Virus record (IMG/VR): IMGVR_UViG_3300006754_000096
Location: 1 to 29,662 of that record
From: a virus
Strand: one strand, 5' to 3'
Length of the DNA stretch: 29,662 nt
Shown here: positions 16,965-29,654 of the stretch, piece by piece
Layout: the number at the start of each line of letters is the position of its first letter
Position numbering within the stretch: position 1 is the first letter of the stretch
Translations under genes and position numbers: made by a program
The notes under the pieces: generated by a model
The model's database searches: none
The model's input: only the letters and a program-made list of their open reading frames with translations
What the model was told of the DNA's origin: nothing

Positions 16965-18041
16965 TCACGAAATGAAGTGTATGAGGTTCTTCTTACCCTC
17001 AAGAATCTTATGTGCTTCTTCAATTAAGATATCGTGTTTAGTTTTCAAATCTATGTTTGAGCCAGTGTCAGCAATAAGGATAGAATTGTCATCATGTCTA
17101 ATGACTTCTGCTGCTACTAATTTTGTCGCGGCTTCGTGTATGGTTCCCGGCACTCTATAATCTCCGGCAACATAAGTGACTCGTATCGAATGCTTCATTG
17201 TAAATGGATATTCTTTCAAGAAGAAAATTTTACCTTCAGAATTTATTGTCCAAAAATCTTCTAATCTTGATTGAGTTTCATTATCAGTGAATGCAGTCAC
17301 ATTTCCAAAAGTAGAAGTTATTCCACAATTAGAACCGTCATCTCCCATAAGTTTTGAAGAGATAACTACAGTATCACTTGCTTCAGTATCTGTGGTAGCA
17401 TAAAAGAAATCTGAAATATTGACACTAGCATTACCATTAGCAGTGACAGATTTAGCAACCGTTTCACCAGTAAATCCAGCAGTTTGTGCAGGAAATACTT
17501 CATTGATTGCATCTGCTATTTGACTGGCCGTAGTTTTAGGTCCGTATGTATCGTAGAAATGTGAATTTTCTGCGACTGCAAACGTATGACTTCCAACAGT
17601 CAACACAATTTGCCAATCAGAAGTAGTAGTAGTGGCAGGTACTTTCACTTTAGCCGTGGCTGATGCTATATCTAGCCAATTGTCACCTTGCCAAACTTCT
17701 AATCTCAATAATTTTCGAACTTTCGGATATTCTAATTGTACAAAACCAATGTAATTTTGCCAATTCCATACTGGATAATTGCTATGTCTAAAATTCGAAA
17801 ATGAAGAATATTCATCTTTGTAAACTATGGGACGATACGAATGTTTTGTGATATCGTCTATTCTTTCTTCTACTCGCTTAATCAAAGCACCCACTTCTGC
17901 TATGGTTGGTGTGGTAAATGCCGTGAAAGATTCTATTTGGAGAAGATTGGATACTTCTGTATGTGTAGTGTAATAACCCTTACCTGTAGTATAATTTGGG
18001 TCTATAGTAGTGAAATCGCTAGGTGAAGATAGTTTACCCAT
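16965..18041 (-). CDS. Head-tail connector (gp6/adaptor-like) with inserted beta domain
   Basis: The product has 358 residues from ATG 18041; AGGTG six bases upstream overlaps the end of the previous gene, and a GTG at 18050 is a weaker start. The N-terminal part, LIKRVEERIDDITKHSYRPI, and the C-terminal VPGTIHEAATKLVAAEVIRH, together match the helical core of head-tail adaptor proteins of the HK97 gp6/SPP1 gp15 kind. Between them, about residues 110-260, is an insert rich in Ser/Thr/Ala, with TASQIADAINEVFPAQTAGF resembling the repeat modules of the adhesin. It would sit below the portal. Confidence is moderate; the insert makes the protein about three times longer than a typical gp6. Confidence 0.55.
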   Translation of the reverse strand: MGKLSSPSDFTTIDPNYTTGKGYYTTHTEVSNLLQIESFTAFTTPTIAEVGALIKRVEERIDDITKHSYRPIVYKDEYSSFSNFRHSNYPVWNWQNYIGFVQLEYPKVRKLLRLEVWQGDNWLDIASATAKVKVPATTTTSDWQIVLTVGSHTFAVAENSHFYDTYGPKTTASQIADAINEVFPAQTAGFTGETVAKSVTANGNASVNISDFFYATTDTEASDTVVISSKLMGDDGSNCGITSTFGNVTAFTDNETQSRLEDFWTINSEGKIFFLKEYPFTMKHSIRVTYVAGDYRVPGTIHEAATKLVAAEVIRHDDNSILIADTGSNIDLKTKHDILIEEAHKILEGKKNLIHFIS

Positions 18042-18042
18042 G

Positions 18043-20709
18043 TTAAGCACCTAGTCCTTGTTTCATTTGTGCATAGTTGTATTGTATTCTTTTCAATGCT
18101 GTTACTTCCTCTGCTTTCTCTTTATCGTGCATACTACTCTTGCTTCGCCAACCCTTCTTTGATGAGAATACAGTATGCTTTGTGTTTAAGGCCTTTCTTG
18201 GTGATAACTTATCAGATTGTTTATCCTTGTGTTGCCCAAGCCACATTAAATTCATTTCGGGTTGGTCAATTGAAATGTCTTCTTCGTCTATGCCAGCATA
18301 TTTGTACAATGCTTCGTTAAGTTCATCTTCTTCTAATAGATGAATTAGAATGGCATCATCTCTTTTCCCTACCCACCCCACTAATCTATCGAATGTCACT
18401 TTATGCTTAGACATATCATCATAGAGTTCATGAATTTTAAATGTCATAGGTAATTTTCCTTTCGGATTGTAGAATAATTTTGCGTTTCCTAAATTGACTT
18501 TTGTTCCTGTCTCACCAATTTCTACTTCCCCTACTTTCCAACCTTCGTCTATCGCTTTCCAAAGTTTGGTTAAATCATCATGGAGTTCTCCTATTTCATC
18601 GAGAGAAGTTCCATACTTTTGAGTAAACTTATTCCAGTCTTGAGTCAAAGTTGGTACTCTTTGGAAACTGGGTTCATCTGTTTCAACAGGTTTAGTGAGT
18701 TGTCTGCCTCTAGCCTTTGAAGGTCTAGGTTTTTTGATTCTATTGAACCAACTTTCCACTGATTGTGGAGTATCCTTAGATTCCCCAAATTGATGTTCTA
18801 TTGGTTTAGTTTCATCAGGCTTACCTTCTTCATCTGTTTCATAGAATTGTGGTCTACCTTCTTCATCTGTTTGAGTTTCATCTTCGCTGAAAGATTCTCC
18901 CCTTTCAAGTGTCTGCTTATCCTCTAATATCGCAGACATTATTTTGACAATATCATTACGGAAAGTAGAATCATCACTCCCATATGCATTCAATAGACCT
19001 TCTACATCTAATTTCATTTGAGTCTTTAATGCATGATACCGCACAAGTATATACCCCACTTTGAGCAATTCAGGCAAATATACCTCATCATAATCTTCAC
19101 TTATAGTGAGATGTTTTCGTAAATTCAATAAAAATTTATCATATCCTGAATCATCATCTTTCCAATTTGGCATGATATATTTGATTGTGGTCATCCCAAT
19201 TTCTATTTTTCCATTTGATGGGGTAATTGAGGCTAAAATATTACGCTTCAATCCATTATCTGAATCGGATAACAATGCCCTTTTGATGTCATCTTTCTGA
19301 AGAGAATGTAGCCGATTATTCCAAAGTTCTCTTGGTGAACTGTATTTCACTTCTTCACCCTTGTAATTTTTAAATTTGAAAGTAATTCCTTCCCAATCAG
19401 AGAGTCCTTCTCCCCAAGTTTCCAACAGTTTACCTGTTTCCTTCCCATCGATAATTTCTATCTTACCTAATAGTGTGACATACTCTATACTATTCTCATC
19501 TACTCGTTTAATATCTCTAGATTGCCCATATGCCTTTCGTATGATATTAATAGCCTTCAACATTTTTTCTTCTATTTCAGGTTCTACAACTGTTACTTCA
19601 TCACGTTCTTCTTCTTCGTCTTGTTGTTCTCCAACATTAAATTCTTGAATTTGTGCAGATTCTCTATGTTGGGATGTTGCTTCTTCAAACCTACTGTTAA
19701 CCCTATCAAGCATTTCTTTTGCTTTATCTGCATCGAACCATCCTAATCTTTTGAGTTTTCTAATGTATTTTTTAGCACTCTCTTTTTGATTTATTTCTGT
19801 ATTGATGTCAGATGATTCGTCTGAATTTATCAATCCCTCTATTTTTAATTCAAGTTTCTCTCCTTCTTCTGAAGACACCGAATGTTTACTGGTTTTTGCT
19901 TCTGAAATATCAACTTGCCATTCATCTGTTTTCGTATCATAATACCCATACAAACCCATAACATGTTTCATATATGCTTCAGTATTAATTTGAATTTCTT
20001 TCTTATCTACTGTGATATTTTCTAAAAATGATTCGAAAAGTTTACTACTTCTATCTAAATCAATAACTGGTGTTCCTTTATCGAATTTATCCAATAGATT
20101 TTTGTTCCTATATTTTGTCTCAGTTTCCTTTGTTTCTTTTTGAGTCTTACCTTTAGGTACATCTGTTTTTAGTCCTACACCGAACTTATATCCAATTACT
20201 TTCTGTATCTTGTTATCACTTTCTAAATCTCCCATTAGAAAGTTGTCATTATCACTTTTCATATTTTCAAAGCCTGACTTACTTATTTTCAATTTATCAA
20301 ATTCTTTGGGAAGATACCCAAACAAATCTTGTTGTAGAAGACTCAATACTGAAACCAAATTCGTGTCATCAAGTTTTTTGGTGAAAAGTTTCAACGCTTT
20401 GTTCAATTTCTTTTCTGTAAATCTCAGTTCTTTACTAGAATATTTGTATTCTCTGAAATCACTTTCATCTAAATCTATTAAAATTGGTACATTACTATTG
20501 ACTGTCTTCATTTTACTAGTTCTTGATTTTGCTAAGTCTTTGAACGCATATGCTGCTAACATGGCATATGCTTGATTTTCCATAAACTTTTCAAAATCAT
20601 CAGAAGCATTGAGTTTCTCAAAGACAAGATTAGTCATCTCTAAGTCTATCAACTCACCCGGAATTTTCATTCTTGGGTCAGTGCGGTTAGGAGCCTTAGA
20701 AATTACCAT
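18043..20709 (-). CDS. Large charged protein of unknown function
   Basis: The product has 888 residues and no signal peptide or membrane segment. It is very rich in Lys, Glu and Asp, with predicted helical and disordered stretches. The N-terminal segment includes DFEKFMENQAYAMLAAYAF. An acidic stretch, QQDEEEERDEVTVVEPEIEE, lies in the middle, and a short duplicated motif, TDEEG(R/K)P, occurs near residues 620-640. The C-terminal 220 residues look more globular (VTFDRLVGWVGKRDDAILIH). I recognise no family, no nuclease, protease or ATPase motif. It separates the GTPase island from the connector gene; a packaged internal head protein is one possibility, but that is only inference. Confidence 0.8.
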   Translation of the reverse strand: MVISKAPNRTDPRMKIPGELIDLEMTNLVFEKLNASDDFEKFMENQAYAMLAAYAFKDLAKSRTSKMKTVNSNVPILIDLDESDFREYKYSSKELRFTEKKLNKALKLFTKKLDDTNLVSVLSLLQQDLFGYLPKEFDKLKISKSGFENMKSDNDNFLMGDLESDNKIQKVIGYKFGVGLKTDVPKGKTQKETKETETKYRNKNLLDKFDKGTPVIDLDRSSKLFESFLENITVDKKEIQINTEAYMKHVMGLYGYYDTKTDEWQVDISEAKTSKHSVSSEEGEKLELKIEGLINSDESSDINTEINQKESAKKYIRKLKRLGWFDADKAKEMLDRVNSRFEEATSQHRESAQIQEFNVGEQQDEEEERDEVTVVEPEIEEKMLKAINIIRKAYGQSRDIKRVDENSIEYVTLLGKIEIIDGKETGKLLETWGEGLSDWEGITFKFKNYKGEEVKYSSPRELWNNRLHSLQKDDIKRALLSDSDNGLKRNILASITPSNGKIEIGMTTIKYIMPNWKDDDSGYDKFLLNLRKHLTISEDYDEVYLPELLKVGYILVRYHALKTQMKLDVEGLLNAYGSDDSTFRNDIVKIMSAILEDKQTLERGESFSEDETQTDEEGRPQFYETDEEGKPDETKPIEHQFGESKDTPQSVESWFNRIKKPRPSKARGRQLTKPVETDEPSFQRVPTLTQDWNKFTQKYGTSLDEIGELHDDLTKLWKAIDEGWKVGEVEIGETGTKVNLGNAKLFYNPKGKLPMTFKIHELYDDMSKHKVTFDRLVGWVGKRDDAILIHLLEEDELNEALYKYAGIDEEDISIDQPEMNLMWLGQHKDKQSDKLSPRKALNTKHTVFSSKKGWRSKSSMHDKEKAEEVTALKRIQYNYAQMKQGLGA
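18822..18872. repeat. Direct repeat of 18 bases
   Basis: The sequence taccttcttcatctgttt occurs at 18822-18839 and again at 18855-18872. It encodes the duplicated TDEEG motif of the large charged protein and is a short in-frame duplication (33-base offset). Confidence 0.7.
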
Positions 20710-20724
20710 CCATCAAACCCCACC

Positions 20725-21435
20725 TTATGCAAGCCATTTAGCCCAAGCGATTCCTTTACTAACAGCGTTCGCCAGTCCAAGACCACTTGCAGGTGGCGTG
20801 TAAGACATTTGACCCGTTTGAGGGTCTATCCAATATGGATTATTCATGTTATCATATCCCGCAGGTGGAATAGGATATCCTGATTGGTTATTCATTGCCA
20901 TTTGCTGTTGCACCATTTGATTGTTCATTCCAACAGCAGCACTACCTCCTGTAATCATCGAAGGGTCCATCCCTTGTGAATTACCCATCATAGGTTGTTG
21001 CATCTGTTGCATCTGTTGCATCTGTTGTTCTTGTGGTAGAGTAAAACCTTGTGATTCAAGATATTGTGTTTTAGCCATCCTTCGCTGCATAACCACTTCT
21101 GAATTAATTGCCGCACCTAGTAATGCTTGCAAATCTAATGCTATGTTTGCTTGTGTAATATTATTCAAATTATTAGTAGCATCTGTAGACAAGGCAAGAT
21201 TGCCATTATTGCTAGAAACAAATTCAAGATTTGTAAGGACATCGCTAACGACTTTCTCAACAACATCAGTTACTAATTGTGCTAATGCTCCAAGAAATGC
21301 TTCACCATGATATTGAAAGAAATCTTCAACATGATTTTCTTGCAAAGTCAACAAATTATTCATGGCTTTGAATTGACTTTGTTGCCCTGTTTGTAATTCA
21401 TTGTAAATTGCTTTGTTACTTGTTCCCCATACCAT
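20725..21435 (-). CDS. Gln/Met-rich protein of unknown function
   Basis: The product has 236 residues. The N-terminal half (residues 1-130) is mostly helical and hydrophilic, with FFQYHGEAFLGALAQLVTDV forming an amphipathic helix. The C-terminal half is disordered-looking: a QMQQMQQMQQ run, then PMMGNSQGMDPSM, NNQMVQQQMAMNNQSGYPIP and a short GLGLANAVSKGIAWAKWLA tail. The start shares one base with the stop of the zinc-knuckle gene (TAATG). It could be a self-associating virion protein, but I recognise no family. Confidence 0.7.
   Translation of the reverse strand: MVWGTSNKAIYNELQTGQQSQFKAMNNLLTLQENHVEDFFQYHGEAFLGALAQLVTDVVEKVVSDVLTNLEFVSSNNGNLALSTDATNNLNNITQANIALDLQALLGAAINSEVVMQRRMAKTQYLESQGFTLPQEQQMQQMQQMQQPMMGNSQGMDPSMITGGSAAVGMNNQMVQQQMAMNNQSGYPIPPAGYDNMNNPYWIDPQTGQMSYTPPASGLGLANAVSKGIAWAKWLA
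21001..21027. repeat. Tandem 9-base repeat
   Basis: The unit catctgttg occurs three times in a row and encodes the QQM runs of the Gln/Met-rich protein. It may expand or contract by replication slippage. Confidence 0.85.
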
Positions 21436-22118
21436 TACTGTTCACTCTCCTCTCCGACGAGTTCTGTTGTGACCTTAGTGCCTTCGGTCAATAACATTTT
21501 CACTCTCTCGTTAATTGAATCTTGTTCAATGACCAATCTAAATAATTCTTCTTCCTTGCTTTCTATTTCGCTTTCAGGTGGTTTAATTGTCCAACCTACA
21601 CTTGATAATGACATGATATCATTTTGTTTTAATGTGGTTAAGGGTCCAGTTACAACTGCTAAAGGATTCAAAGATGAAACCTTTGGAACATATGCACTAA
21701 ATGAAAGCCCATGTTCTTCTGCAAGTATTTGTTGCTCAAGCATCTCATACTGTCTATGTAATTGAGCGTGTTTCTCACAATAAGTACCTCTCATTGGATA
21801 TCCTTTACGAACTTTATGAAGTGGTAAAGGTGGTCGTAGAGTATCGCTTGCTTCCCATATTTTATGAGTTCCACATATCACACATCTGTCCTTAATATTG
21901 TATTTGAACTTGTATGGGATTTTGAGAAATGTTTTCTTCTCAGGCCACATAACCCTGATAATTTCTTGCAATTGTTTCTTAGGTTTAATATTTTTATACT
22001 CATATTGCATGATAGAACCAGCAGCCCTTGCTTGGCCGAATCTATCCATGAATGCAGAACTTGCAATGTTTGTTGTTGCTGCTCCAATTAAACTTGGGGG
22101 TTGAAATTGCATTGACAT
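21435..22118 (-). CDS. Zinc-knuckle protein of unknown function
   Basis: The product has 227 residues. Residues 79-117 hold CVIC (Cys79, Cys82) and later CEKH (Cys114, His117), a CxxC...CxxH pair that would bind one zinc ion. After the knuckle, residues 118-150 form a charged helix (LHRQYEMLEQQILAEEHGLS) and the C-terminus ends in a Glu/Lys-rich helix. The first 45 residues are Ala/Ser-rich. It lies between the GTPase and the Gln/Met-rich gene. The fold resembles no family I can name; a nucleic-acid or protein-binding role is possible. Confidence 0.65.
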   Translation of the reverse strand: MSMQFQPPSLIGAATTNIASSAFMDRFGQARAAGSIMQYEYKNIKPKKQLQEIIRVMWPEKKTFLKIPYKFKYNIKDRCVICGTHKIWEASDTLRPPLPLHKVRKGYPMRGTYCEKHAQLHRQYEMLEQQILAEEHGLSFSAYVPKVSSLNPLAVVTGPLTTLKQNDIMSLSSVGWTIKPPESEIESKEEELFRLVIEQDSINERVKMLLTEGTKVTTELVGEESEQ

Positions 22119-22131
22119 CTACACCACCGAG

Positions 22132-22803
22132 TCAGTAGTCCCTTATCATCGTTAGGACTCCCCTGTAAACCATTTCTGAATCTGATTTAGCACTAACAAT
22201 ATATTTGTAGCAAGGAACGCCTTTATCATTCAAACGTTGTATTCCATCTCTAAATGCTGCAAAAATAGGATGTTGTTCTATTGGGCCATCATGTTCATAT
22301 TTATCTTTCCACAAGTCAAATTTATTAGCCCATATTCCAACGGCTAAAGGAAAATCAGAATCGCGCTTTCTCTTTCTCTTACTGTTAATGTTCCATTCAT
22401 TTGCACAAATAGTATCTACAAGAAATGTCCAACATAATTGTTGTTCAATATCAAAATGTTTGTCCATGTGTCTATCATCAATCATGAAAATAATATATTT
22501 CACATGACGAGTTCTCATATCAGTCACCCAATCATTCCAATAGACTGTCTGCCCCCCAATATCGGCAGTTTTCACAGTATGAGCATCGCCGTCTATTTTG
22601 ATAAATTTCCTTGATGCACGTTGAGTACCTACAGTCCTAGTTTTGATATCAGGGACATCTCCCCTTGTACGAAGTTGGTGATTCATTGTGGTTTTACCCA
22701 CTTGAGAAGCACCATAGATTCCGAAATTAATAGCATGGATTCGTTGATATAACTTATTTAGTCCCTCGACAAACAGTATGGCGAAACCCGCCATTACTGA
22801 CAA
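22132..22803 (-). CDS. Ras/Arf-like small GTPase
   Basis: The 223-residue product carries all the G-domain motifs in order: G1/P-loop GASQVGKT (31-38), G3 DIGGQ (81-85), G4 NKFD (160-163) and G5 SAK (204-206); Thr residues before G3 (for example Thr60) could serve as G2. The DIGGQ form is that of Arf-like GTPases, and Gln85 sits at the catalytic glutamine position. Residues 2-24 (SVMAGFAILFVEGLNKLYQR) form a hydrophobic, amphipathic-looking helix like that by which Arf proteins bind membranes. A basic insert, SKRKRKRDSD, lies near residue 145. The TTG start at 22803 has GGTGA four bases upstream; ATG 22794 is the alternative. It follows two small membrane-protein genes closely. A GTPase in a virion-assembly operon is unexpected. 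Confidence 0.85.
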   Translation of the reverse strand: MSVMAGFAILFVEGLNKLYQRIHAINFGIYGASQVGKTTMNHQLRTRGDVPDIKTRTVGTQRASRKFIKIDGDAHTVKTADIGGQTVYWNDWVTDMRTRHVKYIIFMIDDRHMDKHFDIEQQLCWTFLVDTICANEWNINSKRKRKRDSDFPLAVGIWANKFDLWKDKYEHDGPIEQHPIFAAFRDGIQRLNDKGVPCYKYIVSAKSDSEMVYRGVLTMIRDY

Positions 22804-22807
22804 AGTA

Positions 22808-23041
22808 TCACCACAGTTTACCTAGTAAATCCGTAAATCCGTTCCAAACAATTGAAACTGTGTTTATTCCAAAGATAGCAAGAACTTGTCCTATAGTGAA
22901 ACTTGTGACACAAGCCATAATCCCCCAAAGCCAAAATCTTGCTCGTAGAAACCAAATGTCTGCGGAGTGCGCTCGTTGTAAGTCATATGCTAAGGTGGAT
23001 TCATCGAATCCCATTAAAATTTCGCCAACCAAACAACTCAC
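22808..23041 (-). CDS. Small single-pass membrane protein
   Basis: The product has 77 residues. One hydrophobic segment, about residues 37-60 (FWLWGIMACVTSFTIGQVLA onward), could span a membrane; the N-terminal half is soluble-looking and acidic. The start is GTG, 4 bases after the stop of the preceding membrane-protein gene. It is not a recognised holin, though holins also are small and have such segments. It lies immediately upstream of the GTPase gene, so a shared membrane-linked role is plausible. Confidence 0.6.
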   Translation of the reverse strand: MSCLVGEILMGFDESTLAYDLQRAHSADIWFLRARFWLWGIMACVTSFTIGQVLAIFGINTVSIVWNGFTDLLGKLW

Positions 23042-23045
23042 TCCC

Positions 23046-23459
23046 TCATTGGTCTATTGTCAAAAACTTCGGACTAAGCGTTTCAGGTTCAGGTTCATTT
23101 TTGATGGTTGGTAAGTTAGTATCCCCATAGGGTTGAATGTTGTAGGACTGTTGGAATTGTCGTAGAGATTCTCTAACTCTTCGCTTGTTGTCTTCTTCCC
23201 TTTGCTTCCTAGCCCAATAACCATCAATAGCCCTACGCAATAGAAACTCTTCAATGTAATCCGCAGCGAATAAATCCATCATCACCATCATAATCAATAT
23301 TGCTCCCATTGTGCTAACACCAAACAAAGTAGCATGTGCTTCTGCTCCGTATGGGAATGAATATCCATATTGGGCATAGAACCATACGTTGGCGGCACTT
23401 ACACCACCGACGAATAGAATGACCATCACTAATCTAGAACGTACTGATAAACTCGGCAT
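23046..23459 (-). CDS. Membrane protein with two helices and basic tail
   Basis: The product has 137 residues. Two hydrophobic segments can be seen, about residues 9-31 (VMVILFVGGVSAANVWFYAQ) and 43-65 (TLFGVSTMGAILIMMVMMDL), followed by a charged helix (WARKQREEDNKRRVRESLRQ) and a proline-containing tail. No holin or transporter motif is seen. It is followed 4 bases later by the single-pass membrane gene. The pair could form a membrane complex, with the basic helix facing the cytoplasm by the positive-inside rule. Confidence 0.65.
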   Translation of the reverse strand: MPSLSVRSRLVMVILFVGGVSAANVWFYAQYGYSFPYGAEAHATLFGVSTMGAILIMMVMMDLFAADYIEEFLLRRAIDGYWARKQREEDNKRRVRESLRQFQQSYNIQPYGDTNLPTIKNEPEPETLSPKFLTIDQ

Positions 23460-24654: not shown

Positions 24655-26046
24655 TCAAGCCGACTTCAAGTTCGTAATCTTACCTTGACCTCGGAAGAAA
24701 GAACAAGCAGTCTCGCCCATCGTTCGGTACAGTCCAGTGTTACCTAGCCTGTCAACTCCGAATGGGTTACCGTTAGTTATTCCGTCCTCAAAGTATTGGG
24801 TAGGCTTCATCACTGACAGCCACAGATGGTCTGTGTCTAGAATCATGATGTCACTTAATCCGTTGGTGATAGTAGACTCGGTTGTAGAACCCATGTCCTT
24901 CGCGGGGATGATGGGTATGTCGTAGTATGTTGCCACACGGAAACCGACTTCTGCACCCTTCGGACCCCTAACCCCGTTATGGGTAGGTACGATTTCTTTC
25001 CTGTCCATGAATCGCTCTTGCGATTGTAGCAGGTCAGAAATGTGCTGGATGGTATCGTATCCAGTTAGCATTACCTTCGGGTTACCACCGTTCTGTCGTA
25101 GTCTCCTAATCATGTCGTTCAGAAGAGTAAGGGTCAAGACCCTGCAACCTGCAACTGTATACGCGCTACCATAGTCAATTTCCGCATCAAGGAAGGTAGG
25201 GGAAGATGAAACTGTAATAGTCTCACTGTTATGACTTCCTCCAACCGTCGCTACCCTCGCATCTCCGAAGATGCGCAATAATTCAGGGTCTACATCAGGT
25301 GTACCGGCAGTGGTCGCATTTGTGTTCACTAAGTCATCCAAGTACATCTGCCCAATCTCAGCAGCCGAAGACACTATCTTGTACAAAGAAGTGTAGTTCT
25401 TGTCTATGTTCACGTTTGCGGTGTCAGTGTCATCGTACCTCTCAAGAGGGGTCAACAACATAACGTTCTGAACCTCTGCGTGGTGCTTGCCCATGTCCTC
25501 ACGAACAATGGCCCGGATGTCACCTACACCATCATCGATGGCGGCCATCTCCATACCTAGTTCCGAGAACTCAAACTTGTGAGCAATCGTCTTCGGGCTG
25601 ATGTACAGTTTAGTGTACTCAGGAGACAGTGCAACGATGTTACCCAGTGACTCATTCTCAAGAACGCCACCTATGTCATCTGCTGCGGGTGAAGTAGAAC
25701 CTGCGGCTCCACCTCCAAGTGAGAATGCTGCATTAGCACCACCTTGAGGTCGTGACTTTAGCACCCTCCAACCAGACGAGGTGTAAGGTCGCTTTGCTAT
25801 CATCGAAAGTGCGTTAACTTCCTGATTCAGCATTGACCAAACCTTCTGTCCGTAGAGAACACCATACAAGTCAGTTAGCCCAGTAGCAGCAGTGCCGCTA
25901 AATGGGTTTCCTGATGCGTCGTCGTGAGGAGTTCCGAATCCTCCAACAACACCTGCGCTCTTCAGTATTGGGTTTCCACCTGCAAAGCCCCTTAACCCGT
26001 AGGTTGAGGCTTCCAAGTCCTTCATGGTCTTGATGTATCCTGCCAT
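24655..26046 (-). CDS. Major capsid protein (HK97-fold)
   Basis: The product has 463 residues from ATG 26046, with GGGGTGA six bases upstream; GTG 26052, overlapping the protease stop, is an alternative. It begins MAGYIKTMKDLEASTYGLRG. Later blocks, LYGVLYGQKVWSMLNQEVNA, SPEYTKLYISPKTIAHKFEF, REDMGKHHAEVQNVMLL, and near the end SDIMILDTDHLWLSVMKPTQ, LGNTGLYRTMGETACSFFRG, follow the order of N-arm, E-loop region, spine helix and P-domain of HK97-type capsids. Position after protease-scaffold and before a small decoration protein agrees. Codons such as AAG, AAC, TAC and ATC are favoured, unlike neighbouring genes; one 60-base row at 24961 has 31 G/C. This points to strong translational selection. 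Confidence 0.85.
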   Translation of the reverse strand: MAGYIKTMKDLEASTYGLRGFAGGNPILKSAGVVGGFGTPHDDASGNPFSGTAATGLTDLYGVLYGQKVWSMLNQEVNALSMIAKRPYTSSGWRVLKSRPQGGANAAFSLGGGAAGSTSPAADDIGGVLENESLGNIVALSPEYTKLYISPKTIAHKFEFSELGMEMAAIDDGVGDIRAIVREDMGKHHAEVQNVMLLTPLERYDDTDTANVNIDKNYTSLYKIVSSAAEIGQMYLDDLVNTNATTAGTPDVDPELLRIFGDARVATVGGSHNSETITVSSSPTFLDAEIDYGSAYTVAGCRVLTLTLLNDMIRRLRQNGGNPKVMLTGYDTIQHISDLLQSQERFMDRKEIVPTHNGVRGPKGAEVGFRVATYYDIPIIPAKDMGSTTESTITNGLSDIMILDTDHLWLSVMKPTQYFEDGITNGNPFGVDRLGNTGLYRTMGETACSFFRGQGKITNLKSA

Positions 26047-26048
26047 GT

Positions 26049-26672
26049 TCACTCACCCCTCGCAAAGTTGTGTATATCTGACCACGCAAGTTCACCTGCG
26101 GCCTCAACTGACGTTGGGAATCCGTTAGGGAACTCAAATGCGACTTCCTCAATCTTCCGAATGCTTTCGTTCTTTTCAGAGAGAGACTTGCGAAGGTCAG
26201 CGAACTCTTCCTTCAAGTCAGCAACCTCAGCGCGAGCATCGTACTCTCTCCTCTCTGCGTCTGCTTTCTTAACGGAGATTTCACCCTCAAAACGAGCAGC
26301 GAAGGTCTTGCTTAGATTATTATAAGCCATTCTCTCCAATTGCTCTGCCTTGTAGGTTTCATACGCCTTCTCCACATTCTCGTTGCTAAGGTCAAGAGTA
26401 GTGAAATCACTCGACTCTAGACCCTTAGAGACTGAGAGTGGAGCAGGTGTTGCCTTGGGCTTACCGCCACTAACAACTTCCTCACCAGCCTCATATTCTC
26501 TTGTGGTGTCCTCATCGAGTGCCTTCTCTTCGTCGTCCAAATCGTCCTCATCTTCAGATTTGTCCATTTCCTCAAGCATCTCATCTTCTTCTTCTTCTTC
26601 CTTGTTGAGTTGCTCAACCTGTTTCATCAGGCCGTTCAATTCCTCAAGTGCTTTTTCCAGTTTTTCACTCAT
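26049..26672 (-). CDS. Internal in-frame scaffold protein nested in protease gene
   Basis: Inside the protease gene an ATG at 26672 is preceded by GGAGGTGA (26681-26688) with an ideal 8-base spacer. It would give a 207-residue protein identical to the C-terminal part of the protease. The product is a helical, highly charged protein: a leading coiled-coil stretch (MSEKLEKALEELNGLMKQVE), an acidic low-complexity region (SEDEDDLDDEEKALDED), then a long Lys/Glu/Ala-rich helix (ADLKEEFADLRKSLSEKNES). These are scaffold-like features, and lambda C/Nu3 is a known example of the same arrangement. GC content rises near this start. The product should fill the prohead and be cut by the protease. Confidence 0.75.
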   Translation of the reverse strand: MSEKLEKALEELNGLMKQVEQLNKEEEEEDEMLEEMDKSEDEDDLDDEEKALDEDTTREYEAGEEVVSGGKPKATPAPLSVSKGLESSDFTTLDLSNENVEKAYETYKAEQLERMAYNNLSKTFAARFEGEISVKKADAERREYDARAEVADLKEEFADLRKSLSEKNESIRKIEEVAFEFPNGFPTSVEAAGELAWSDIHNFARGE

Positions 26673-27224
26673 TTTTGTTTTCACCTCCGACTCTTGTTTT
26701 AAGATGTCGAATTTTGCTTCCGGGTTGATTCCTTTTTCACAGATAGTAACTTCATGTAATTCCAACTTGTCTATTTCGTTGTATTCTCCAAAATCATCAG
26801 AAGTTTTCTGTTTCTTTGAAATCGCTTGCCCTCCTATACTGAATGAACGTAATGTTCCTTTTCTGATGCCTCTTGAAATTTCCTTTGCCTTCTCTATGTC
26901 ATCTCGCATTTTGATTACAACATAGAACCCAACGTCATCTACACCTGTTTTGTGTAAGACCCCGTTATTATCTCGGTATTTCTCGACAACCTCCCCAACT
27001 TGTACATTTGAATGATTTGACATTACATTACGATATTTCTGCTCTTCCATGTATTGTTTGACTGCTAAATCTAATGCATCTAGTGTAATCAAGTCATTTT
27101 GCTTGTCTACAATTTCTATTGATGCATATCCTCCTATTATCAGTTCATCTGACTTCAGTATTGTAAATTCTCTCTCCAAATCTGCCTTCAGCAACAGTTC
27201 TCCTGATACTAACACTTCATTCAC
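26049..27224 (-). CDS. Prohead maturation protease with C-terminal scaffold domain
   Basis: The product has 391 residues. The first 175 look like the Caudoviricetes prohead serine protease fold (S78/U35-like): IIGGYASIEIVDKQNDLITL, MSNHSNVQVGEVVEKYRD with a candidate catalytic His71, GTLRSFSIGGQAI with a candidate Ser (127 or 129), and LHEVTICEKGINPEAKFDIL, the conserved 'EvtivekP..NPEA'-type end. The C-terminal 207 residues form the scaffold that is also made separately from an internal start. It lies 21 bases after the ligase stop, with AAAAAGGTGA directly before its ATG. It should cleave capsid, scaffold and itself during head maturation. The choice of catalytic Ser is a guess. Confidence 0.85.
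   Translation of the reverse strand: MNEVLVSGELLLKADLEREFTILKSDELIIGGYASIEIVDKQNDLITLDALDLAVKQYMEEQKYRNVMSNHSNVQVGEVVEKYRDNNGVLHKTGVDDVGFYVVIKMRDDIEKAKEISRGIRKGTLRSFSIGGQAISKKQKTSDDFGEYNEIDKLELHEVTICEKGINPEAKFDILKQESEVKTKMSEKLEKALEELNGLMKQVEQLNKEEEEEDEMLEEMDKSEDEDDLDDEEKALDEDTTREYEAGEEVVSGGKPKATPAPLSVSKGLESSDFTTLDLSNENVEKAYETYKAEQLERMAYNNLSKTFAARFEGEISVKKADAERREYDARAEVADLKEEFADLRKSLSEKNESIRKIEEVAFEFPNGFPTSVEAAGELAWSDIHNFARGE
26681..26688 (-). promoter_or_regulatory. Strong internal ribosome-binding site of scaffold
   Basis: GGAGGTGA lies 8 bases before an in-frame ATG inside the protease gene. It is one of the strongest such sites in the window, and decides that a second protein starts here. 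Confidence 0.75.
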
Positions 27225-27245: not shown

Positions 27246-29654
27246 TTACGTTGAACTTTCTGTTGGAAAACCCAGTTCTGCATGTTTATCTTGAGTAATA
27301 TCCCATAAGTTGCTATCATCTTTCAAGTCTAGCATGTCTTGCTTCTTTCCAGTCCACACTATCCAAGTTTTCTTTTCGTTCATAGGTACTACGCGCACAT
27401 GAAAGCGAGTTTCAAACTTATTTCCTTCTAACTTGTATTCATGGTAACCATTCTTTTGCACACCAAGAGTTAATTTCCCTGAATCTATTTCTTTTCTATG
27501 TTCACCTAATGTTTTACCAACAACAGCAGGGAACTTTTCAGATTTACCGAATAAATCATAGATGTCTTCTGCATCTTCAATATCAATATGCCAAAAGTTA
27601 CGCTTATCATTAACATCTATAATGAAATCTAAATTTCCATCTTCTCTTAACGCAAGATTAAATTTTCCAATTTTAGATTCCTTCTTCAATTCCTCAACGT
27701 CCTTTTCTAAAACATCTTCCAATGCTGTAAACTTGTTAGGATGATGGTATCGTAGAGATTCTTGTTTTTTCATCCAAGTCATAAGTCTACCATCTGAATT
27801 ATCAAAGACCTCTTCATATGTTTCAGGGAATTCTTTCTTAACGAAGTCAACAATCTTACCAAACGCGGTAGGTTTGTTAGCATATATCTCAAGTATCTCA
27901 TTCTTAATCGCAATACGCAATTCAGAACGCCTTGTCTTCAATAATTGTTCTAGTTCAGTTTTCCATATATCTAGATTATAGAGAGCATTTTTCTGCATGA
28001 GTGAATCGCCTTCAAACCCATAAATTGTGAAACCATTCAAATCAGACTTAAGAATTATCTCAGCAGTACCATGTATATTATCTGTGATAAAATAAGACTT
28101 TTTTGTTTCATTTTTATCTTTTAACCCACTTGTAATGCTGAATGGATTAATTGTTTGCTTAATGCCAATTACTGCATCCTGCATATAGGACTTTTTGGTT
28201 TTGGTTGATAATTGTTCAAGAGTATCCAAATTATCAGATTCAGTGACTTCAGGAATTTCTATGACTTTTGCTGAATAGAGAGTAAATCCATTCTTACCCT
28301 TTTTTACTTCATCCACTTTGACCCTTACAATATCACCAATCTTTACTTTCTCTTTCGTGTTAAGTGCCTTACCAACTGATAGATACGCTTTGTCTTCCAT
28401 CTCTACTGTTTTGTAATTCCTAGCAGTTTCTGCGGAAACTGGTCCGATACCCATTGTGTATGAATTCAATCCACTCTTGGTGGTTTTCTTGTCTAAAACA
28501 ATTACATCCAAATCTACAAATTTTTTCCATTTAATCCACTTAGGATTTTTCTTCTTACCTGTATGATAAGTAGATTCTATGTCCTTGATTACCACTCCCT
28601 CAGAAGCAGGAAGTTCCATGATATCTTTCGCATAATCCCCAACTTCCTTTATTGAATCTGCTATTCGTGTATCTTGCTTAGATGGGAATGCTAACGCATC
28701 TGAGGAATGTTGACTGAATTGATAGAGAAGTATGTTATGCCTTTCACGCAAAGTTTCGTCTTTGGTATCTTTTCCATCATGGAACATAATATCAAACACA
28801 TGCGCTTTCAGTTCTCCCCCTTTTTTATTCTTGAAAACGTGTGCAATAGTGTCTGCTCGATGAAGTGGTTCCTTCCCATCAAACAACATCAATTCCCCAT
28901 CTAAGATGCAATCTCCAAATTGTTTGAGTTTCAATCTCTCAACTTGTTTTTCACATTTGTCAGTAATGTCCTTTTGATTGTATGAGTAAATTTTGATATT
29001 ATCCTTTTTCTTATGGAGTTGTATTCTCATTCCATCGTATTTTTCTTGAACCAACCATTCTCCACTGAATCCCTTAAGTTCTTTCATGTCGTCTAATTCA
29101 AAGATTCGATACATTGGCTTGTTTGGTAAGACAAAATCTATTTCTGCTTTCTCATCGTCGCTTTTTGTATCATCACTTTTCTGCATATCCAATTCAACGA
29201 GATTATCCCACTTCTCTTCGTTATATGATTCGTTGTAGAGTTTGTCAAGCGTTTTGAGTGCGCCTTTGAATTTGGATTTGACCCTACTCGTGTCTTTGCC
29301 TTCTGCACCATAATGTTCTATGATGTACAGAGGAATGTCTTCTAATTCTAAATCTAATCCCATTACTCCTTGAGTAACGTCATCAGGTTTCAAATTCATT
29401 GATTCCCATATTTTATCAGGAAGAGCATTGGTGTGTGACCTCAAAGCATAATGCACAAATGCGACAAACAAACGTTCATTCTCAATTAATGTGTCAATGA
29501 CTTCCTCACCGAACTTCTTCGAGAAGGGGTCACTCACTTTGTTTGATTGAAAGCGCATGTCCTTGATTGCTTCAAAGAGTCGTTTGGCTTCCAATGTAGT
29601 TGGGTCTTTGGCTGATGTTTCAAACAGAGTCTTCTCATCTAAATAAATTTTCAA
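27246..29654 (-). CDS. ATP-dependent DNA ligase with long C-terminal extension
   Basis: The visible part has 802 residues. Nucleotidyltransferase motifs are in order: motif I EKYDGMR with catalytic Lys205, motif III DGE (252-254), IIIa HVFDIMFHDG (285-294), motif IV EGVVIKD (352-358) and motif V WIKWKKF (373-379), followed by an OB-type domain to about residue 480. Residues 1-195 are a DNA-binding-type helical region. The remaining 320 residues are an extension of uncertain fold. The first codon shown is a TTG (29652-29654) with no stop upstream before the window edge, so the gene may begin further right. It joins nicks using ATP. It lies just before the protease gene, an unusual place for a ligase. 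Confidence 0.88.
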   Translation of the reverse strand: MKIYLDEKTLFETSAKDPTTLEAKRLFEAIKDMRFQSNKVSDPFSKKFGEEVIDTLIENERLFVAFVHYALRSHTNALPDKIWESMNLKPDDVTQGVMGLDLELEDIPLYIIEHYGAEGKDTSRVKSKFKGALKTLDKLYNESYNEEKWDNLVELDMQKSDDTKSDDEKAEIDFVLPNKPMYRIFELDDMKELKGFSGEWLVQEKYDGMRIQLHKKKDNIKIYSYNQKDITDKCEKQVERLKLKQFGDCILDGELMLFDGKEPLHRADTIAHVFKNKKGGELKAHVFDIMFHDGKDTKDETLRERHNILLYQFSQHSSDALAFPSKQDTRIADSIKEVGDYAKDIMELPASEGVVIKDIESTYHTGKKKNPKWIKWKKFVDLDVIVLDKKTTKSGLNSYTMGIGPVSAETARNYKTVEMEDKAYLSVGKALNTKEKVKIGDIVRVKVDEVKKGKNGFTLYSAKVIEIPEVTESDNLDTLEQLSTKTKKSYMQDAVIGIKQTINPFSITSGLKDKNETKKSYFITDNIHGTAEIILKSDLNGFTIYGFEGDSLMQKNALYNLDIWKTELEQLLKTRRSELRIAIKNEILEIYANKPTAFGKIVDFVKKEFPETYEEVFDNSDGRLMTWMKKQESLRYHHPNKFTALEDVLEKDVEELKKESKIGKFNLALREDGNLDFIIDVNDKRNFWHIDIEDAEDIYDLFGKSEKFPAVVGKTLGEHRKEIDSGKLTLGVQKNGYHEYKLEGNKFETRFHVRVVPMNEKKTWIVWTGKKQDMLDLKDDSNLWDITQDKHAELGFPTESST

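Follow-up and report, generated by a model that had tools for sequence, protein, structure and literature searches.

A predicted Ras-superfamily small GTPase in a conserved membrane-protein cassette of marine archaeal tailed viruses

Tailed viruses build and release their virions with ATPases, proteases, holins and endolysins; to our knowledge, this kit for assembly and release includes no GTP switch of the Ras type. A 29.7-kb virus record, analysed over its whole length and referred to here as the window, carries within its virion operon an open reading frame with the motifs of a small GTPase. The locus raises three questions: whether the protein is a GTPase of the Ras type, whether the gene belongs to the virus or was acquired by chance, and which step of the viral cycle it might control. 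An earlier note on this DNA, made from the letters alone, had described it as an Arf-like GTPase gene placed just after two membrane-protein genes. The family occurs in two virus lineages, that of the window and a sister lineage described below, and the features of the window's gene are as follows.

22132..22803, minus strand: small GTPase, an ORF of 223 aa with a G-domain and an N-terminal hydrophobic helix
22738..22800, minus strand: N-terminal helix, residues 2-22, from the AlphaFold helix and from hydropathy and moment
22690..22713, minus strand: G1 (P-loop) GASQVGKT, residues 31-38; G31, G36, K37 and T38 invariant in 69 sequences
22633..22635, minus strand: G2 (switch I), Thr57 of 'RTVG'; both lineages conserve R56 and T57
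22549..22563, minus strand: G3 DIGGQ, residues 81-85, the last of which varies between Q, E and D family-wide
22315..22326, minus strand: G4 NKFD, residues 160-163; N160, K161 and D163 invariant
22186..22194, minus strand: G5 SAK, residues 204-206; AT[KR] in the sister lineage

Fold, motifs and family placement of the GTPase

The complete set of G-motifs that had been reported (GASQVGKT, DIGGQ, NKFD and SAK) is present, and key residues of G1 to G4 are invariant (G31, G36, K37, T38, T57, D81, G84, N160, K161 and D163) in 69 non-redundant sequences from the two lineages, between which the protein is 26-38% identical. G5 is degenerate in the sister lineage (AT[KR] versus SAK). The start codon is TTG in the window, with ATG at the same codon in 19 of 36 representative relatives. 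The 'catalytic Gln85' of the earlier note did not hold up as a conserved residue: this position, which corresponds to Gln61 of Ras, is Q in 17 and E in 19 sequences of the window's lineage, and E in 16, Q in 10 and D in seven sequences of the sister lineage. An acidic residue here does not imply a dead enzyme, because the Q61E variant of Ras still hydrolyses GTP.

Structure prediction, which had been proposed as a check, gives a G-domain. The AlphaFold model, built with 36 relatives, has the topology of a P-loop GTPase after the helix at residues 2-22 (pLDDT 73, pTM 0.73), with moderate confidence near switch I and the P-loop (pLDDT 53-62). Foldseek matches it to Rab33, Arl8b, Arl3, Rab3 and Asgard ArfR (E about 1e-8 to 1e-7, best 2e-8; TM-scores of about 0.5-0.57 by query length), and a two-lineage profile matches Rab33B (1.2e-5) and the GTP-binding protein 8oun (2.8e-5); these structure and profile matches make the predicted fold secure. 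The NCBIfam model small_GTP matches all 36 representatives (best 1.8e-7), and the single-sequence Pfam matches of the window protein are weak and split among Roc, SRPRB, MMR_HSR1 and Ras. The viral protein can thus be classed securely, by predicted G-domain fold and motifs, as a Ras-superfamily small GTPase, and it would be expected to bind GTP.

Its position within the superfamily is less specific. The Pfam models Arf, Roc, MMR_HSR1, SRPRB and Ras differ little in score over the family as a whole, with the window protein below the cut-off. The Arf model (PF00025) has no match to the window protein at E <= 1 and matches 22 of 36 relatives (best 5e-5), and SRPRB (PF09439) reaches E 0.0018 with the window protein, below the cut-off, and matches 24 of the 36 (best 3e-5). 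There is no Gly2 myristoylation site (in the window's lineage, residue 2 is Ser or Thr) and no WDxGGQ in G3, where the box reads [TSA][AS]DxGG[QED], without Trp and with a Gln that is not conserved. The label 'Arf-like' is, therefore, not supported: by these scores the protein seems to fall between the Ras, Rab, Arf and SRP-receptor-beta models, such that no single family can be assigned.

The N-terminal helix, which had been likened to the membrane-binding helix of Arf, is indeed predicted (residues 2-22), but it lacks Gly2 and is hydrophobic, resembling a transmembrane segment in many members. It has a narrow polar face (S2, G6, E13, K17, Q20 and R21) and is otherwise hydrophobic; Glu13 is invariant in the window's lineage, in which Kyte-Doolittle values over 19 residues lie between 1.2 and 2.06 and polar or basic residues follow at positions 20-21. 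The helix reaches membrane-spanning hydrophobicity in about half of the members and is milder in the sister lineage (about 1.0-1.3). It is closer to an anchor of the SRP-receptor-beta type than to a myristoylated Arf helix, and it may lie in the plane of the membrane or pack against the two neighbouring membrane proteins, TM-A and TM-B.

Genomic setting and conservation of the five-gene cassette

The virion operon of the window lies on the minus strand and starts with an ATP-dependent DNA ligase, an S78 prohead protease, an HK97-type capsid protein, small head genes, TM-A and TM-B. The GTPase gene is followed by genes for a Zn protein, a Q-rich protein, a large variable protein, a connector-type gene, a tail protein and a tape measure. 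The genes on which the comparison draws are listed here.

26049..27224, minus strand: prohead protease, Pfam Peptidase_S78, 8e-9
24655..26052, minus strand: HK97-type major capsid protein, PHROG 24667, E 4e-22
23046..23459, minus strand: TM-A, 137 aa, two predicted TM helices, then a basic, coiled-coil-like cytoplasmic tail; in 98/98 loci
22808..23041, minus strand: TM-B, 77 aa, invariant RAHSA motif, then one predicted TM and an amphipathic end; in 98/98 loci
21435..22118, minus strand: Zn protein, 227 aa, invariant CxxC...CxKH (C79, C82, C114, H117); predicted structure poor (pTM 0.47)
20725..21435, minus strand: Q-rich protein, 236 aa, with a core and a C-terminal helix that are both conserved
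16965..18050, minus strand: neck/connector-type gene downstream of the cassette, PHROG 17057 (function unknown), E 3e-19, the 'neck' label being drawn from gene order relative to HVTV-1

A scan of viral contigs with the window protein alone yielded 77 relatives of the GTPase, and one with a profile yielded 382. Across 117 loci compared, the five genes of the cassette (TM-A, TM-B, GTPase, Zn protein and Q-rich protein) follow the capsid gene in this one order wherever the contig extends. To avoid circularity, loci were found through the capsid protein alone and kept if at least 4.5 kb lay downstream (n = 98); all five genes are present in every one of them. The GTPase gene is, thus, a core gene of the virion-assembly operon. 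The earlier note had stated beforehand that the lack of a homologue in related viruses would point to a chance capture, and had called for a search for the gene between capsid and connector genes: the gene is universal in the capsid-found set, with the same placement throughout. Its position after two membrane-protein genes is equally constant (98/98), with gaps of a few bases: at most 16 nt between TM-A and TM-B, and a median of 6 nt (at most 57 nt) between TM-B and the GTPase gene, which are adjacent throughout, with no intervening gene. The gap between the GTPase and Zn protein genes reaches 540 nt. Among the proteins compared, the median of the pairwise dN/dS values is lowest for the GTPase (0.057), followed by TM-A (0.074), the Zn protein (0.085), the capsid protein (0.105) and the tail protein (0.33), which points to strong purifying selection on the GTPase, above that on the capsid gene. 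Chance capture and a host cargo gene are ruled out by the presence of the gene in 98/98 loci, its occurrence in two lineages and this low dN/dS.

Two other genes of the operon deserve mention. The ATP-dependent DNA ligase (window 27246-29654, 802 aa) has extra N- and C-terminal parts; in at least 97 of the 117 loci, its gene adjoins that of the prohead protease and thus lies inside the virion operon. A protein of 888 aa, encoded between the cassette and the connector gene (window 18043-20709), is poorly conserved, being found in just 15 of the 117 loci, although its neighbours are highly conserved.

Full-size relatives of the window (88-103 kb) encode a family B DNA polymerase, a terminase, an S78 protease and, in some cases, a GroEL-type chaperonin. 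Among the genomes G001-G017, many have the polymerase as two separate open frames, and others have it intact (986-987 aa in G004, G008 and G013); split and intact forms occur within related groups. Magrovirales are described as viruses of 90-110 kb with a family B polymerase, an ATP-dependent ligase, an HK97 capsid and an S78 protease (ICTV), and Poseidoniales are reported as the hosts of magroviruses (magrovirus literature). The window can be assigned by gene content to a marine archaeal tailed virus of the magrovirus type, of which it is a fragment, because the gene set of the window and its full-size relatives, and the size of the latter, fit this description.

In the capsid tree, the relatives whose cassette follows the capsid gene form a single clade (support 100/100), and its sister clade lacks the cassette at that place. 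Whole records of the sister clade (92-109 kb) hold a homologue of the GTPase elsewhere (E 1e-34 to 1e-38), within a block encoding a two-TM protein with a coiled-coil tail, a small TM protein, the GTPase, a Zn protein and a Q-rich protein, in the same five-gene order in all 71 complete sister-lineage loci. The terminase gene follows this block at a distance of about 7 kb, and the protease and capsid genes at about 20 kb, all on the same strand. Homology between the lineages is detected with hhalign for the GTPase (E 3e-33, 32% identity), the Zn protein (4e-9) and the Q-rich protein (2.5e-5); for TM-A and TM-B no sequence homology was detectable (E 0.14-0.37), and their equivalence was set by position, size and topology rather than sequence. 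The order of the block is fixed while its site in the morphogenesis module shifts, and the block therefore seems to travel as a unit. Conserved order at a changed site is good evidence for a functional unit, and the cassette is probably older than its present place in the genome.

The GTPase was absent from HVTV-1 and from 17 other distant-capsid records, mostly partial, detection in the sister clade serving as the positive control of the method. In lineages with HVTV-like capsids, none of 49 loci has the gene near the capsid gene; this does not mean that the sister clade (18 rows) lacks it, because there it is elsewhere in the genome. Directly upstream of the sister cassette stand series of small genes whose products share an N-terminal leader of the approximate form 'M(x)PF(D/E)xAWxLLK' (e.g. 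L366:194-5748, L357:4116-4957, L438 and L402); there are nine such genes in L366 and seven in L438, and none on the opposite strand, used as a control. The leader, which is absent from the window, could be a signal for head targeting or for the prohead protease.

Searches beyond these viruses agree with the earlier remark that no standard assembly GTPase of tailed viruses is known. No PHROGs family matches the protein; among GenBank phages there was no match for the window GTPase and one insignificant match for the sister GTPase; a viral structure library gave at least 50 matches, of which those listed are all proteins of giant eukaryotic viruses. Scanning 84,980 species genomes with conserved peptide patterns, which bring only close relatives within reach, produced just two matching contigs (L079 and L080), which had been binned in a Maricaulis sp. 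MAG but have the gene content of viruses. This MAG is therefore contaminated, and no cellular source of the GTPase came up within the reach of the scan. The term 'GTPase' does not occur in the magrovirus literature surveyed, and the founding papers (Philosof 2017, Zhou 2023, Prabhu 2025) could mention the gene. The G-domain is of a known kind; what appears to be new is that tailed viruses use it as a core gene of a membrane cassette of five genes.

A possible membrane switch and its alternatives

The reading that we prefer, with a probability of about 0.5, is that a virus-owned G-protein of the Ras superfamily acts as the switch of a five-protein membrane module gating a late step of assembly or release. 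TM-A, with its two-TM hairpin and cytoplasmic coiled coil, and TM-B, with its single TM, would reside in the host membrane, and the GTPase would dock beside them via the hydrophobic helix at its N terminus. Once bound to GTP, it would recruit or release the cytoplasmic Zn and Q-rich proteins, thereby gating a membrane-linked step late in infection, most likely the siting or triggering of proheads at the membrane, or the release of progeny; GTP hydrolysis, probably assisted by a partner, would reset the switch. The controlled step may be assembly or egress alike, the data being compatible with either. The G-domain with its nucleotide-binding motifs, the gene order of two lineages, the strong purifying selection and the membrane-type neighbours are seen in the sequence, and three points count against a switch module: TM-A and TM-B are unlike in sequence between the lineages, the model is of moderate confidence at the P-loop and switch I, and G5 is degenerate in the sister lineage. 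The membrane-linked switch of the earlier note thus stands as regards the gene, a real small GTPase that is a core member of the assembly operon and is tied to two membrane genes, but its function is something that we infer. The broader picture, of a hitherto undescribed five-gene viral machine universal in two abundant lineages of marine archaeal tailed viruses, moving as a unit and operating a GTPase-gated membrane step, is tentative, and we would put it somewhat short of an even chance. If true, no earlier case of assembly or egress gated by a G-protein would be known from tailed viruses.

Of the alternatives, the one that survives best takes ArvA as its model. This Arf-like GTPase of archaea carries an amphipathic helix at its N terminus; in Haloferax it brings about the formation of vesicles, and its operon also encodes a Zn-ribbon partner, ArvC (PMC10927574). 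The GTP-bound viral protein would insert its helix and bend the host membrane, the virus leaving in or by way of vesicles or buds. The hydrophobic helix, the DxGG[QED] G3 box and the Zn-type neighbour fit this scheme; it nevertheless seems unlikely, given that OapB/ArvB (DUF2073) was found in none of 18 virus records, with the Haloferax control detected, that the Zn protein has no Pfam family match and no DUF2072 (ArvC) was found in it, and that the Arf assignment of the viral GTPase is not significant. A lysis or exit timer, with TM-A and TM-B as holin-like proteins and the GTPase setting the timing with the Zn and Q-rich proteins, would account for two small membrane proteins adjoining the GTPase and for the one TM protein at the matching place in HVTV-1 (gp124). 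We consider it rather improbable, as TM-A has no convincing holin-family match in Pfam or PHROGs and carries a long conserved cytoplasmic tail, and five conserved proteins exceed the needs of known holin systems.

Little credence can be given to a role of the five proteins as parts of the virion (at the vertex, inside it or injected) in entry or DNA delivery, with the GTPase acting after injection: the genes do lie within the structural operon, and the sister block follows small genes with a shared leader that is a possible head-targeting signal, but the cassette proteins themselves lack this leader and the position of the block relative to the head genes differs between lineages. Least probable is a nucleotide-binding fold serving as a structural scaffold, without switching or hydrolysis, which would suit the variation of residue 85 (Q/E/D) and of G5, but not the invariance of the P-loop Lys and Thr, the switch-I Thr, Asp81 and NKxD over two deep lineages.

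Returning to the switch module, a core GTPase under stronger constraint than the capsid protein, in viruses common in the ocean, implies a membrane step controlled by a G-protein. The cassette is also a testable candidate for the host exit of archaeal tailed viruses without known lysis genes, and the GTPase adds a divergent, virus-borne branch to the non-eukaryotic GTPases of the Ras/Arf type.

Comparison with known systems

The nearest cultured relative by capsid is HVTV-1 (Druskaviridae), the capsid protein of which is 25% identical to that of the window. The head-neck-tail order is the same in both, and a single TM protein of HVTV-1 is encoded at the equivalent position, whereas no GTPase of this family is encoded anywhere in its 102-kb genome. 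This TM protein, gp124 (L120:14196-14528), annotated as hypothetical and encoded between head and connector genes, has one predicted TM and a helical tail, a layout that looks holin-type. Giant eukaryotic viruses also encode Ras/Rab-like small GTPases, but their hosts are eukaryotes and the genes are similar to those for Ras, Rab or Ran, whereas the gene described here is a core gene of the virion operon in archaeal Caudoviricetes.

Among cellular systems, the ArvA/ArvB/ArvC operon resembles the viral block in combining a GTPase bearing an N-terminal helix with a Zn-type protein, and in its expected archaeal host range; compared by description and neighbours, the viral block differs in having two TM partners and a Q-rich protein, and no ArvB. 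The Ras-superfamily GTPases at large (Rab, Ras, Arf/Arl and Asgard ArfR) have the G1-G4 motifs and the fold in common with the viral protein, which is set apart by its hydrophobic helix without Gly2, by Q, E or D at residue 85 and by its location in the virion operon of a tailed virus. SRP receptor beta, like the viral GTPase, has an Arf-related G-domain with an N-terminal membrane anchor, but there is no SR-alpha partner in the viral operon, and the viral G3 ends in GG[QED].
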